Virus record (IMG/VR): IMGVR_UViG_3300042731_002831
Location: 1-21,932 of that record
DNA: 21,932 nt
DNA from: a virus
Direction: 5' to 3' (one strand)
This document shows, in pieces, positions 11,020 to 19,489 of the stretch. The notes under the pieces are model-generated. The model did no database searches. It worked only from the letters and a program-made list of their open reading frames with translations, and had not been told where the DNA came from. Every line of letters starts with the position of its first letter. The first letter of the stretch is position 1. The position numbers and the translations under genes were made by a program.

Positions 11020-11060
11020 TTATATTAATAAAAAATATTTATAAAATTACTATTTTTTAC

Positions 11061-11088
11061 TTGCAAAATATTATTTATATGTTATACT
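11061..11088 (+). promoter_or_regulatory. sigma70-like promoter P2 with extended -10
   Basis: TTGCAA (11061-11066), a 16-bp spacer and TATACT (11083-11088), with TG one base upstream (TGnTATACT). About 52 bases around it are almost identical to those around P3 at 12578, and two independent copies support function. It drives the cassette starting at 11151. Confidence 0.8.
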
Positions 11089-11139
11089 TTACATAAGTTC
11101 GGTAATTAATAAATCGATTTATTGTTTAATGTAAATGTA

Positions 11140-11159
11140 GGAGGCCTAAGATGGCGAAA
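11140..11159 (+). promoter_or_regulatory. duplicated ribosome-binding/start segment, copy 1
   Basis: GGAGGCCTAAGATGGCGAAA is identical over 20 nt to 13235-13254. It contains the SD (GGAGG) and the first three codons (Met-Ala-Lys). Confidence 0.85.
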
Positions 11160-11525
11160 AAGAATTCAAAGAAGACAGAAGTAAAGGCTGATAAGCCAAC
11201 ACCAACAGAAACTACAAAAGTTCCAGTGATTGTCAGTGACATTCGTAATGTAGCTGGTAATTTGGGGGAACTGGCTGATTTACCAAAAGTAACTTTAAGT
11301 CAGCGTTCAAAGCTTGTAGATGGCATTAATAAACTTGCAACAAGAGTTGAAAAGATTCTTGCGAGTGCTGGTAAAAAAGCTGAAAGGGAGGCTGCTAAAG
11401 CCAAACGCGAAGCAGTGAAGGCTGAAAAGGCAAAAGCCAAACGTGAAAAGGCTGAAAAGAAAATCGCCGATATGCGGAAGAAGCTTGAAAAGATGGAAGC
11501 TGATCTTGCTGCGGATGGTAAGTAA
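11151..11525 (+). CDS. Lys/Ala-rich coiled-coil protein, cassette 1
   Basis: The function of this 124-aa protein is not recognised. Residues 1-25 are polar and basic; about 27-70 form a compact helical or mixed section (VPVIVSDIRNVAGNLGELAD); about 72-124 are almost pure Lys/Ala/Glu/Arg helix with heptad spacing, ending IADMRKKLEKMEADLAADGK. The C-terminal helix resembles the end of the protein at 13246 (VAKMREMLKSLESQLEAEG), and both genes share an identical 20-nt ribosome-binding/start segment and a hammerhead ribozyme just downstream, so they look like paralogous cassettes. Codons are richer in G/C than in neighbours (gctgaaaaggcaaaagcc), which together with P2 and the SD suggests high expression. 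It could be DNA-binding or structural; unproven. Confidence 0.8.
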   Translation: MAKKNSKKTEVKADKPTPTETTKVPVIVSDIRNVAGNLGELADLPKVTLSQRSKLVDGINKLATRVEKILASAGKKAEREAAKAKREAVKAEKAKAKREKAEKKIADMRKKLEKMEADLAADGK

Positions 11526-11532
11526 TTAATTG

Positions 11533-11666
11533 ATCCCAGATTCGAAACTCCACCGAAAAATATTTACCGCTAATAATGTTAGCGGAGAATTAGGTTGAAA
11601 GTCCGAGAGTAGGTGGAGTATATAGCAGGTGGTGCTGTTATACTGATGAGAAGCCAATTAAGGGAT
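11533..11666 (+). ncRNA. type II hammerhead ribozyme, copy 1
   Basis: All core elements are present in the order of a hammerhead with stem II open. GAAA (11544-11547) is followed by stem III, CTCCACC (11548-11554) with GGTGGAG (11612-11618), closed by the A15.1-U16.1 pair (11547/11619). H17 is A11620, so the predicted cut is between 11620 and 11621. Stem I is TATAGCAG (11621-11628) with CTGTTATA (11635-11642) and loop GTGGTG. CTGATGA is at 11643-11649. Stem II is GAA (11650-11652) with TTC (11541-11543), an internal loop, then GGGAT (11662-11666) with ATCCC (11533-11537). The stem III loop is large (57 nt) and holds its own hairpin CCGCTAA/TTAGCGG. Cleavage would release a downstream mRNA starting with the stem I hairpin, just ahead of the gene at 11672. 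Confidence 0.92.
11615..11666 (+). repeat. direct repeat (ribozyme 3' half), copy 1
   Basis: This matches 13759-13810 with one substitution and one single-base gap. It covers the cleavage site, stem I, CTGATGA and the 3' strand of stem II. Confidence 0.9.
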
Positions 11667-11671
11667 GAAAA

Positions 11672-11875
11672 ATGAATTTTGATAGAGAGATAAAAATTGC
11701 TAAACAAACCAAAGATTCAATTTCTACAGTTAAAATAGATAAAATCTCTTGTGCTGGTACTGCATATTCTGCGACTTGCCCAGAATGTGGAAAATTCCAT
11801 TGGTTGGGCGGATCAGAAATTAATTCATTATCAGTGGTTTGTATCTGTGGTACAAAATTTTTATTGGAGAGATGA
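11672..11875 (+). CDS. small zinc-ribbon protein (67 aa)
   Basis: The ATG lies 5 nt after the last paired base of the upstream ribozyme, and its SD (agggatga) is itself part of ribozyme stem II. The product has C36-P-E-C39 and C57-I-C59 separated by 17 residues, with a Trp between them (KFHWLGG); this looks like a compact zinc ribbon, with C27 as a possible extra ligand. Such small ribbons bind nucleic acid or protein. No enzyme motif is seen. The gene is probably translated from a processed 5'-hydroxyl mRNA if the ribozyme cuts. It is followed 3 nt later by another small gene. Confidence 0.7.
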   Translation: MNFDREIKIAKQTKDSISTVKIDKISCAGTAYSATCPECGKFHWLGGSEINSLSVVCICGTKFLLER

Positions 11876-12478: not shown

Positions 12479-12577
12479 TTGATTAAGGTTTGGGGAATTT
12501 AAAATGAAACGATTAGCGGAATATAAAGCTAATATATTATAGGGCGTAAAATAATTCATTAAAATTACTATTTTTAC

Positions 12578-12605
12578 TTGCAAAATCTTATTTATATGTT
12601 ATACT
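12578..12605 (+). promoter_or_regulatory. sigma70-like promoter P3 with extended -10
   Basis: TTGCAA (12578-12583), 16 bp, TATACT (12600-12605) with TG one base upstream. It is nearly identical to P2 across 12561-12612. The leader contains ATAGGTT (12610-12616) pairing with AACCTAT (12631-12637), a 7-bp hairpin next to the SD gggaga of the beta-helix gene. Confidence 0.8.
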
Positions 12606-12651
12606 TTATATAGGTTAAACAATATTATTAAACCTATTTGGGAGAAATAAA

Positions 12652-13179
12652 ATGAAATATAAGCTGTTAAAAACTGATACAATTCAAGTCGATGGAAAAA
12701 CACTATTTCGAATAAAATCATTAACTTCTTTTTCTGAAGTTAGAGCTGGGGAATTAGGTGGCTATGTTGAATCAGAAGCTAATTTAGCTCAAATTGGTGA
12801 TGCTTGGGTATCCGATGATGCTAAGGTATTTGACAATGCTAAGATATCCGATGATGCTTGGGTATCTGACAATGCTAAGATATCTGGTAATGCTGAAATA
12901 TTTGGCAATGCTGAGATATCCGATGATGCTAAGATATCCGATGATGCTAAGATATTTGGCAATGCTTGGGTATCTGACAATGCTAAGATATCTGGTGATG
13001 CTAAGATATCCGGTAATGCTTGGGTATTTGGCAATGCTGAGATATCCGGTGATGCTAATATATCTGGTGATGCTAAGATATCTGGTGATGCTAAGATATC
13101 CGGTGATGCTAATATATCTGGTGATGCTGAGATATCCGGCAATGCTAAGATATCCGGTAATGCTAAGATATCCGGTTAG
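12652..13179 (+). CDS. left-handed beta-helix hexapeptide-repeat protein
   Basis: The product (175 aa) has an N-terminal domain of about 50 residues (YKLLKTDTIQVDGKTLFRI, then GELGGYVESEANL), followed from residue 51 to the end by about 21 tandem six-residue units of the form A-[KEWN]-[IV]-[SF]-[GD]-[ND]. Hexapeptide arrays of this kind fold as a left-handed parallel beta-helix, three units per turn, giving about seven turns. The N-terminal segment plus AxVxGN repeats is a layout known in phage and prophage proteins of unclear role. None of the loops or His residues of hexapeptide acyltransferases is present, so a structural or binding role is more likely. The stop follows directly in the repeat array with no capping domain. 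It is driven by P3. Confidence 0.8.
   Translation: MKYKLLKTDTIQVDGKTLFRIKSLTSFSEVRAGELGGYVESEANLAQIGDAWVSDDAKVFDNAKISDDAWVSDNAKISGNAEIFGNAEISDDAKISDDAKIFGNAWVSDNAKISGDAKISGNAWVFGNAEISGDANISGDAKISGDAKISGDANISGDAEISGNAKISGNAKISG
12802..13176 (+). repeat. 18-bp tandem repeat encoding the beta-helix
   Basis: About 21 copies of a GCTAAGATATCCGGTGAT-like unit in register with the codons. Variation falls into a few variants (GCTTGGGTATCTGACAAT, GCTGAGATATTTGGCAAT), which suggests repeated duplication. The repetition keeps the other forward frame and the reverse strand open too; I regard those as shadows. Confidence 0.9.
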
Positions 13180-13234: not shown

Positions 13235-13254
13235 GGAGGCCTAAGATGGCGAAA
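13235..13254 (+). promoter_or_regulatory. duplicated ribosome-binding/start segment, copy 2
   Basis: Identical over 20 nt to 11140-11159, including SD GGAGG and Met-Ala-Lys codons. No promoter like P2 or P3 is seen between the beta-helix gene and this site, so it is probably transcribed from P3. Confidence 0.85.
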
Positions 13255-13713
13255 GTAAACAAAGTTGGTCAAAAAGAATCTGCAACACAAACAAAAGAGG
13301 AAAAAGGGCGTATAGATTTTCCAGTGGCGGAAGCTATGTATGTTGACAAGGAAGGGAAAATAGTCACAGCAGTTAATAATGAAGGTTTGTTAATCGCTGT
13401 GCCAAAACCTATTAAGGATGATAATGGAAATGTTACTTATAGCGGATACAATGTTCGCAGGCATCTTCCAATAAAGAAGGGACAATTCGAATCAACAGGA
13501 ACTTATTTAAGATATCAGGCTTATGTTGCTCGACTTAAAGCCGCTATTCTTATCAAGAATGCTGAAGATAAGGAAAGTAAAGCTGAGCGAGTTGAAAAGT
13601 TTGGTGATGAAAAAACGCGTCGTGCAGTAGCTAAAGTTGCTAAGATGCGTGAAATGCTTAAATCTCTTGAATCTCAGCTTGAAGCTGAAGGAGTTAATGT
13701 AGAAGATATTTAA
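13246..13713 (+). CDS. hypothetical basic protein, cassette 2
   Basis: The product (155 aa) is not recognised. After a polar N-terminus (MAKVNKVGQKESATQTKEEK), residues about 25-75 look beta-rich (AMYVDKEGKIVTAVNNEGLL, NVTYSGYNVRRHLPIKKGQF). The C-terminal 70 residues are helical and charged, ending VAKMREMLKSLESQLEAEG, which resembles the tail of the cassette-1 protein at 11151. Shared start segment, similar tail and a ribozyme immediately downstream mark the two genes as a duplicated unit. Codons are again richer in G/C than in most neighbours. A nucleic-acid-binding or virion-associated role is possible but unsupported. Confidence 0.78.
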   Translation: MAKVNKVGQKESATQTKEEKGRIDFPVAEAMYVDKEGKIVTAVNNEGLLIAVPKPIKDDNGNVTYSGYNVRRHLPIKKGQFESTGTYLRYQAYVARLKAAILIKNAEDKESKAERVEKFGDEKTRRAVAKVAKMREMLKSLESQLEAEGVNVEDI

Positions 13714-13719
13714 CACACT

Positions 13720-13809
13720 CCCCTCATTTCGAAACTCCGCTGTAGTAATTATCTCGGCGGAGTATATAGCAGGTGGTGCTGTTATACTGATGAGAAACCA
13801 ATTAAGGGG
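13720..13809 (+). ncRNA. type II hammerhead ribozyme, copy 2
   Basis: Same topology as the copy at 11533. GAAA is at 13731-13734. Stem III is CTCCGCTG (13735-13742) with CGGCGGAG (13755-13762), plus A-U closure (13734/13763). H17 is A13764, so the predicted cut is between 13764 and 13765. Stem I is TATAGCAG (13765-13772) with CTGTTATA (13779-13786), loop GTGGTG. CTGATGA is at 13787-13793. Stem II is GAAA (13794-13797) with TTTC (13727-13730), then AGGGG (13805-13809) with CCCCT (13720-13724). Compared with copy 1, stem III changes on both strands (CTCCACC/GGTGGAG to CTCCGCTG/CGGCGGAG) and stem II likewise (ATCCC/GGGAT to CCCCT/AGGGG), so pairing is kept while sequence drifts. A second AGGGG at 13817-13821 could compete for CCCCT. 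Confidence 0.93.
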
Positions 13810-13810
13810 A
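13759..13810 (+). repeat. direct repeat (ribozyme 3' half), copy 2
   Basis: Matches 11615-11666 with one substitution and one single-base gap. Confidence 0.9.
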
Positions 13811-13829
13811 TAATTAAGGGGTGTGAAAA

Positions 13830-14198
13830 ATGAAATGTTGTTCTAATGTAGTAAATACAAAAACTAAATTAAGAGATTTATCTGAAAATGTTAAAGTAGA
13901 TAAATGTTTGATTAAACGCTATACTGATATATTAAAAAATAAAGATGAAATAATTGCTGAATATGATGCTGAAATAGCTAAAATAGAATCTAAAAAAGCT
14001 GAGATATTAAAAGATTATAATTCAGCTCCAAGTAAAATTAAAGAACTAAATATTCATCTTAAAGAAATGACTTCTAAAATGCAAGATATAAAAGATAAGG
14101 CGAGCGGTAAAAAACGTAAAATTCAACGATTAAAACTTTTACGCCAACGTCTTGCAACTTTAGAAGCTGAAATTGCCAAAGATCAATTAACAACTTAA
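13830..14198 (+). CDS. coiled-coil hypothetical protein (122 aa)
   Basis: The ATG lies 20 nt after the ribozyme, with an SD-like aaggggtg that may pair with bases 5' of the ribozyme. The product is almost entirely helical. After MKCCSNVVNTKTK, residues about 15-115 show heptad spacing with Lys/Glu/Ile/Leu (IAEYDAEIAKIESKKAEILK; LKLLRQRLATLEAEIAK), so it is probably a dimeric coiled coil. An N-terminal Cys pair is present, with no further zinc motif. It is the last gene before a 339-nt non-coding stretch. Function unknown; a scaffold or partner of the two Lys/Ala-rich cassette proteins is only a guess. Confidence 0.7.
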   Translation: MKCCSNVVNTKTKLRDLSENVKVDKCLIKRYTDILKNKDEIIAEYDAEIAKIESKKAEILKDYNSAPSKIKELNIHLKEMTSKMQDIKDKASGKKRKIQRLKLLRQRLATLEAEIAKDQLTT

Positions 14199-14537
14199 AA
14201 TCAATATTAGCCGTTTACTCTTATCGTTAATAAAGAGCGTAAAGCGGTAATGGTTGCTTAACAACAGAATCCGTAGAGCAGTACGAAAACCCGCTTATTT
14301 AATTGATACTATTAAGTTTAGCTGCGAGCTGAACTATTATATTGTTATGAGACTGTTAATTTATAATAGTCTCTAATTATTATACATCGCGTCCAGTACA
14401 TTAACGGCGATATATTATCAAATCCCAAGGGCTGGAGTAGGGCATATTAATATTAAGGAGGTGAAAGCTGCGATATCAATAAGTCGGTTATTAACCTCCT
14501 TTTAATTAAATTTAACCATAGTACAAAGAAAAACAAA
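14199..14537 (+). ncRNA. 339-nt non-coding region with serial hairpins
   Basis: I see no gene here but several well-formed stems. CCGTTTACTCTT (from 14211) pairs imperfectly with AAGAGCGTAAAGCGG (to 14247). AGTTTAGCT (14315-14323) pairs with AGCTGAACT (14327-14335), 9 bp with a GCG loop. GAGACTGTTA (14349-14358) pairs with TAATAGTCTC (14364-14373), 10 bp with an ATTTA loop. ATCGC (14386-14390) pairs with GCGAT (14407-14411). The last hairpin is listed separately as a terminator. No tRNA T-arm, CTGATGA core or known riboswitch core was found. It could be one or more small RNAs or a long structured leader for the ligase gene. Confidence 0.45.
14455..14503 (+). terminator. terminator-like hairpin with SD/anti-SD stem
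   Basis: AAGGAGGT (14455-14462) pairs perfectly with ACCTCCTT (14494-14501), followed by TT and an AT-rich stretch; the loop is 31 nt. One strand is a perfect Shine-Dalgarno with no start codon at normal spacing, and the other copies the anti-SD end of 16S rRNA. It may terminate transcripts entering the ligase gene; the long loop lowers confidence. Confidence 0.5.
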
Positions 14538-18102: not shown

Positions 18103-18936
18103 ATGAAAATAGTAATACCTACAATGCAACGCAGTGATATTCAATTTACTGCTAAACAATTATTAAAAGCAGATACACCAAAAATATATGATTGTTTTAT
18201 GGTTGTTCCTATTGATGAAGGAGTTGAATATTCTAAAAAATTTGGTAACAATTTTAAAATTATCACTACAAAATTACATGGAATTAACAATATTAGGCAA
18301 TTTATTATTGAAAATTGTAATGATAATAAAGTATTAATGATAGATGATGATTTAAGATTTTTTCATCGGCCTTCAATAGATGATGTTTCATTATATCAAG
18401 CTACTGGCGAACAAATATTAGATATGATTCAATGGTTAGATAATAGATTAGATGAGTATGCTCATGTTTCAATTGCAGCAAGAACTCAAAATTTTCAATT
18501 AACAAGTAGAATGCAAAAAGCAGAAAGTTTTGAATTAAAAACTGTTCGCCCATATAGAATATATGGTTTTAGAAAAGATATAGTATTAGGAGAAGAACTT
18601 GATTATCATGCTGGATTAAAAATAAATACTATGGATGATTTCCATATAACTCTTTCTTTATTAGAACTCGGTTATCCTAATATTGTGTCTTGTAAATGGG
18701 CACATGATCAATGCACTTCTAATTCTCGTGGTGGTGCTGCTTCTTATCGAGATTTAGAAATGTTGAAAGTTTGTGCTTTAAATCTTAAAGAAAAACATCC
18801 ACAAGTTGTAAAAGTTGTAGAAAAGACTACAAAATCATCCTGGGGAGGTACACCGAAGAAACCTGTAACAAGAACCGATGTTATTATACAATGGCAGAAA
18901 GCGTTGGGAATAAGAGCTAACGAAAGTAAATTATAA
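18103..18936 (+). CDS. TET-associated-type glycosyltransferase (TAGT, GT-A fold), predicted to act on DNA base
   Basis: The product (277 aa) has the layout of the TAGT family: an N-terminal Rossmann-like start MKIVIPTMQR, a conserved Arg in HGINNIRQFII (R65), and a GT-A metal motif LMIDDDLRFF (D81-D82-D83), followed by HVSIAARTQNF and an acceptor-side KINTMDDFHITLSLLELGYPN segment. Family knowledge: TAGTs were predicted, and some shown, to glycosylate 5-hydroxymethyl pyrimidines in phage DNA. No TET/JBP oxygenase is in this window, so the hydroxymethyl base would come from the TS-like enzyme at 15953 instead. Its stop overlaps the next start (TAATG). No SD is seen. Sugar donor unknown. Confidence 0.8.
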   Translation: MKIVIPTMQRSDIQFTAKQLLKADTPKIYDCFMVVPIDEGVEYSKKFGNNFKIITTKLHGINNIRQFIIENCNDNKVLMIDDDLRFFHRPSIDDVSLYQATGEQILDMIQWLDNRLDEYAHVSIAARTQNFQLTSRMQKAESFELKTVRPYRIYGFRKDIVLGEELDYHAGLKINTMDDFHITLSLLELGYPNIVSCKWAHDQCTSNSRGGAASYRDLEMLKVCALNLKEKHPQVVKVVEKTTKSSWGGTPKKPVTRTDVIIQWQKALGIRANESKL

Positions 18937-19489
18937 TGAATAAAAAATATAATATAATTTATGCTGATCCCCCATGGAATTATAAAGATGGATTTAGCAA
19001 TCCATCTTCAAATAATTGTAATATTTCTATGCACTATCCCACAATGGATTTACAAGATATTAAAAATTTATCTATTGAGAAAATTGCTAAAGAAGATTGT
19101 TTATTATTTATTTGGACAACTGATGCTCACCTACCAAAATGTTTAGAAGTGATAAAGGCTTGGGGTTTTAAATATATTACAGTTGGATTCTATTGGTATA
19201 AAAAGACTAAGAATAATAAAACTCATATTGTTTTTGGTAGATGGACTTTGAAATCTGTAGAAATGTGTCTTCTTGCAGGGCGAGGTCACCCATCATATTT
19301 AAAATTTGTAGCAATGTCCGTCAATTTGTAGAAGAAAAGGTGACGGGGCATAGTATAAAACCTTTAGAAGTTGCAAATAGGATTGTTGAATTAGTTGGTA
19401 ATGCTCCACGAATAGAACTTTTTGCTCGTGATAAAAAAGAAGGCTGGGATGTATGGGGTAATGAAGTTGAAAGTGATATTATATTATGA
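18936..19489 (+). CDS. MT-A70 adenine methyltransferase, reading frame shifts -1 near 19304
   Basis: The first frame (18936-19331) encodes an N-terminal part with the catalytic D11-P-P-W14 motif (IIYADPPWNYKDG), then LLFIWTTDAHLPK and CLLAGRGHP. The rest of the MT-A70 fold, RNVRQ-like SNVRQFVEEKVTGHS, KPLEVANRIVELV and IELFARDKKEGWDVWGNEV, is in the -1 frame up to 19489. The break falls exactly at TTTAAAA (19298-19304), read T TTA AAA in the first frame; a -1 slip yields 184 aa, the usual phage length. Without it the protein ends at 19331 (131 aa) and loses the C-terminal block. The family methylates N6 of adenine in DNA (or RNA). The -1 end overlaps the next gene as ATGA. Programmed frameshifting, mutation and sequencing error are all possible. 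Confidence 0.8.
19298..19350 (+). promoter_or_regulatory. candidate -1 ribosomal frameshift signal
   Basis: The slippery heptamer TTTAAAA (19298-19304) is in the right phase (T TTA AAA). About 13 nt later CCGTCA (19318-19323) pairs with TGACGG (19341-19346) around a 17-nt loop; extending through a G-U and a bulged G to 19315/19350 shortens the spacer to 10 nt. The zero-frame stop is at 19329. Confidence 0.6.

Follow-up and report, generated by a model that had tools for sequence, protein, structure and literature searches.

Type II hammerhead ribozymes were described in 2011 by Perreault et al. (PMC3088659). In that work, cleavage in vitro depended on a pseudoknot, prophage copies from A. tumefaciens cleaved in vitro as well as on expression in E. 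coli, and mRNA processing between cistrons was proposed for clustered prophage hammerheads. For the HHphage element of haloviruses HF1/HF2, a mapped mRNA 5' end lies near the cleavage site (PMC3088659). The DNA analyzed here (the window) is the 21,932-nt stretch of virus record IMGVR_UViG_3300042731_002831, a 21.9-kb record with primase/helicase, family A DNA polymerase, and DNA ligase genes. Two elements on the plus strand, at 11533-11666 (copy 1) and 13714-13825 (copy 2), form a well-supported pair of type II hammerheads when their sequences are judged by the published criteria. Both are new but ordinary members of a class that is well known in phages.

The hammerhead core criteria were taken from PMC3088659. 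Core positions C3 U4 G5 A6 N7 G8 A9, G12 A13 A14, A15.1-U16.1, and H17 were found in both copies, the core-adjacent pairs N1.1-N2.1, N10.1-N11.1, and A15.1-U16.1 are U-A, G-C, and A-U in both, and the pseudoknot between loop I and the tail that belongs to type II (RF02276) is present in both. The sequence-only reading had proposed a complete type II hammerhead at 11533-11666 with CTGATGA, GAAA, the A15.1-U16.1 pair, and a GTA triplet, and all of these elements were located there. In copy 1, the 3' strand of stem II (UUC) and the core GAAA lie at 11541-11547, with GAAA at 11544-11547. Stem III (11547-11619) is a perfect 8-bp helix of A11547-C11554 with G11612-U11619, including A15.1-U16.1, and closes a 57-nt loop that contains a CCGCTAA/TTAGCGG hairpin. 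The GUA triplet is G11618-U11619-A11620 (11618-11620), and the predicted cut lies between 11620 and 11621. Stem I (11621-11642) pairs 11621-11628 with 11635-11642 in 8 bp with one G.U, and its loop is GUGGUG. The core CUGAUGA (11643-11649) and the 5' strand of stem II (GAA) follow at 11643-11652. Stem II has 3 bp (U11541-C11543 with G11650-A11652) and is extended by a 5-bp outer helix of AUCCC at 11533-11537 with GGGAU at 11662-11666. UGGU of loop I (11630-11633) is able to form the pseudoknot with GCCA at 11653-11656. Of the stem lengths of 8, 7, and 3+5 bp given earlier, those of stem III and of the divided helix stood, and that of stem I is 8 bp instead of 7. The description of stem II as the open helix was borne out in both copies, where stems I and III are hairpins.

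The free minimum-energy fold of 11530-11670 contained the outer helix together with stems I and III, and its energy corresponded to a z-score of -3.67, with 0 of 200 shuffles equally stable. A hairpin of 7-8 bp with a flank forms within loop III of copy 1, and copy 2 has no such insert. An alternative GAAA register of copy 1 at 11597 was rejected; it has a mismatch at stem III position 15.2 and a U.G at 10.1-11.1 and was evaluated at -2.1 kcal/mol, versus -18.7 to -23.4 kcal/mol for the 11544 register. The snoRNA matches at the copy 1 site were attributed to chance.

The sequence-only reading named one element, which stands as copy 1, but a second complete and cleaner hammerhead at 13714-13825 on the same strand had been missed. 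Copy 2 was found by searching the record with copy 1, to which it is 96% identical over 53 nt (13756-13808), and was also found as a repeat family. The core model match covers 13729-13802, and the whole element includes a predicted outer helix, seen in the fold, of CACACUCC (13714-13721) with GGGGUGUG (13818-13825). GAAA (13731-13734) and stem III together span 13731-13763, with 13734-13742 paired to 13755-13763 in 9 bp around a 12-nt loop. Stem I (13765-13772/13779-13786), CUGAUGA (13787-13793), the stem II strand GAA, and the pseudoknot occupy 13765-13800, and the predicted cut is after 13764. Stem I is identical in the two copies. Stem III carries a compensatory change, A11552-U11614 in copy 1 versus G13739-C13758 in copy 2, and the pseudoknot partner is GCCA in copy 1 and ACCA (13797-13800) in copy 2, either of which can pair with UGGU (13774-13777 in copy 2). 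When copy 2 was folded by plain energy minimization, part of CUGAUGA was paired with an upstream UCAU, a possible competing fold that is neither proved nor excluded by an energy model that lacks the tertiary core.

A strict descriptor was defined as GAAA, stem III of at least 5 bp beginning with A-U, UH, stem I of at least 4 bp whose loop is no longer than 12 nt, CUGANGA, and stem II of at least 2 bp. It matched the plus strand of the window exactly twice, at copies 1 and 2, and gave no match on the minus strand. Over 9,855 dinucleotide shuffles of the window, the descriptor matched 25 times, and no shuffle had more than one match. No hammerhead surrounds the remaining CTGATGA sites of the window (4713, 6320 on the minus strand, 14815, and 19589).

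A family collection was assembled from 95 IMG/VR stretches matching the pattern TGGTGN{3,12}ACTGATGAGNANCCAA, and after a second pattern scan 84 distinct entries were parsed; L142 and L160 (poor matches) and L077 (wrong register) were dropped from later tests. A covariance model (R1) was built from 24 diverse phage hammerheads, with the window and a near-identical contig left out. In the 24-element alignment, 98.5% of pair cells were standard, 11 of 20 pairs had changed on both sides, and the pseudoknot was 94.8% paired; sliding the partner strand destroyed the covariation signal. Copy 2 scored 55.1 bits (E 4.1e-12) with R1 and copy 1 scored 43.9 bits (E 2.7e-9), the latter over 11595-11658 with stem III shifted to the register of GAAA 11597 because of the 57-nt loop III. 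Nothing else in the window scored above 11.5 bits. Ten loci, seven of them in the training set, were scanned with Rfam, and all ten passed the RF02276 gathering threshold (41-78 bits); the training family is therefore the Rfam type II family, and the two copies are homologous to bona fide RF02276 members. The only match in GTDB genomes (L225, a Spartobacteria MAG) scored 14.4 bits, lay inside a long open coding frame, and had broken stem III pairs; it was taken as a chance match and a useful negative.

The covariance-model search set as a check by the sequence-only reading came out in two parts: RF02276 remained below threshold, and the model from 24 other phage elements matched both copies. 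The Rfam scan of the window at the gathering threshold returned no match. In a permissive RF02276 scan, copy 1 reached 20.9 bits, against a threshold of 37 that is a detection cut-off rather than a mechanistic feature, and was aligned in a wrong register on a GAGA; copy 2 was not listed. With this pair, the range of type II hammerheads comes to include an AT-rich phage lineage in which Rfam's model fails, and such ribozymes are therefore probably under-counted.

Each hammerhead sits between two small ORFs, after the stop codon of one and before the start codon of the other, a placement shared with dozens of further phage elements. Copy 1 is preceded by a charged, coiled-coil-like ORF of 124 aa (11151-11525) and followed by a Cys-rich ORF of 67 aa (11672-11875), and copy 2 is preceded by an ORF of 155 aa (13246-13713) and followed by a coiled-coil-like ORF of 122 aa (13830-14198), all on the plus strand. 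Family searches with the flanking ORFs gave nothing firm, and the 155-aa ORF matched only the near-identical contig. The two upstream ORFs have weak C-terminal similarity (E 0.001, single comparison), which in charged coiled-coil-like sequence is not strong evidence of paralogy. In the 84 parsed entries, GAAA most often follows the end of the upstream stop codon by 2-4 nt, and about 10-12 nt separate the pseudoknot from the start codon; the window copies are spaced more loosely, with stop codons 17-18 nt before GAAA and start codons 14 and 28 nt after the pseudoknot. A promoter-like repeat, TTGCAA-16-TATACT with TG before the second hexamer, lies ahead of the copy 1 unit (11031-11099, plus strand), and a sister repeat, 81% identical, lies ahead of the copy 2 unit (12548-12616).

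Other features were noted in the window. An ORF of 18-nt repeats (12652-13179) encodes a YdcK/LpxA-like beta-solenoid (Pfam, PHROG 7964) that is also present in other phages. The overlapping ORFs 18936-19331 and 19241-19489, in different frames (18936-19489), resemble, by eye and from translations only, a single N6-adenine methyltransferase that a frameshift has divided.

Two hammerhead copies also occur in several relatives. One contig (L069/L218/L219) has hammerheads and flanking genes identical to those of the window. The nearest diverged phage found, L220, has a polymerase 72% identical and keeps the gene pair around copy 2, with a counterpart of the 155-aa ORF. The L220 intergenic region at the place of copy 2 has no hammerhead and has a plain hairpin instead, so the ribozyme is dispensable in the L220 lineage. 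That hairpin, TTAGCCGTT/AACGGCTAA after the counterpart of the 155-aa ORF, is enclosed by an outer helix, TTAAATCC/GGGTTTAA. No hammerhead was found in MW202657.1, the nearest named phage record (polymerase 44%), either; the element was therefore gained in, or lost from, related phages. The GUA triplet is rare among phage relatives (3 of 84), where GUC is usual, and loop III length varies freely in the phage family. Small genes of L220 are also preceded by sequences similar to the promoter-like repeats. A conserved noncoding stretch of the window at 14392-14454 (CCAGTACA(T/C)TAACGGCGA..TATT..AA.TCC.AAGG..), with the coiled-coil-like ORF on one side and the DNA ligase gene on the other, is kept in L220 (from 9950) and is a candidate structured RNA; it had no Rfam match.

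Both hammerheads very probably cleave themselves in polycistronic phage mRNA, between cistrons, as it is made. This is proposed because core and stems are complete in two copies, stem III shows a compensatory change, and such matches are rare in shuffles, and because a covariance model free of window sequence matches both copies, and the family behind that model shows strong covariation, includes RF02276-passing members, and is placed between stop and start codons. The 124-aa ORF would be separated from the 67-aa ORF by the cut after 11620, and the 155-aa ORF from the 122-aa ORF by the cut after 13764. Each upstream mRNA would carry a 2',3'-cyclic phosphate at its end, directly after the stem III hairpin, and each downstream mRNA would begin at a stem I hairpin with a 5'-OH, beyond which lies the Shine-Dalgarno site. 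In vivo cleavage would, we infer, serve to divide long messages into separate cistrons. Counting against mRNA cutting are the long loop III and second, weaker GAAA register of copy 1, the possible competing fold of copy 2, the scores below the Rfam threshold or unlisted, the rarity of GUA, and the lack of a hammerhead in L220. The low Rfam scores, GUA in place of the usual GUC, and the L220 locus would also suit decayed or inactive relics kept by recent duplication, but this is very unlikely given that the core positions are all intact in both copies, that stem III has changed on both sides yet is still paired, and that copy 2 reaches 55 bits with an independent model. Scarcely probable at all is an allosteric ribozyme in which the structured 57-nt loop III of copy 1 would be a ligand- or protein-sensing domain; the loop does form a hairpin of 7-8 bp with a flank and copy 2 is without the insert, but there was no diverged homologue for a conservation test, and family members vary freely in the length of loop III.

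Cleavage might also gate translation, which would complement the cutting of mRNA. Before cleavage, the downstream Shine-Dalgarno site would be paired with the outer part of the extended stem II, and after the cut this helix would join two separate RNAs, fall apart, and free the site. In copy 1, AAGGGA and the AUG of the 67-aa ORF lie at 11660-11674 on the plus strand, and the GGG, which is paired in the precursor as predicted, is in part more accessible in the 3' cleavage product. What is unusual in this pair, and suggestive, is the helix over the site, which was predicted in both copies from different sequences (AUCCC/GGGAU and CACACUCC/GGGGUGUG). Within the site, the central G's were unpaired at 4-17% in the precursor of copy 1 and 0-2% in that of copy 2, partly freer in the 3' product, and by hiding of the site by the native 5' flank versus shuffled flanks the copies ranked 2nd and 3rd among 64 phage elements. 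The idea was chosen after the pairing was seen, however, a flank helix of at least 5 bp arises in 23% of mismatched flank pairs, the outer helix over the site is known in one lineage only, and hiding as a general family feature was unsupported (mean 0.561 versus 0.566, 64 elements). Gating of this kind is therefore regarded as a minor possibility, and it is doubtful that cleavage acts as a translation switch in this phage lineage, with only processed mRNA translated. If true, it would give phage hammerheads a testable purpose.

Self-cleavage of mRNA between cistrons is also what Perreault et al. proposed (PMC3088659). In common with Hammerhead_II (RF02276) and the type II elements of PMC3088659, the window copies have an open stem II, closed stems I and III, the invariant core, and the pseudoknot between loop I and the tail, and they occur as several copies flanking small phage genes, next to stop and start codons. 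They differ from these in being AT-rich, in having GUA and not GUC, in scoring below the gathering threshold, in a stem II of 3-4 bp to which an outer helix covering the Shine-Dalgarno site is added, in the 57-nt loop III of copy 1, and in a stop codon 17-18 nt, not 2-4 nt, upstream. With HHphage of HF1/HF2 they share the position of a virus hammerhead a few nucleotides upstream of a start codon; HHphage is a variant hammerhead of archaeal viruses (PMC3088659), whereas the window copies have the canonical core.
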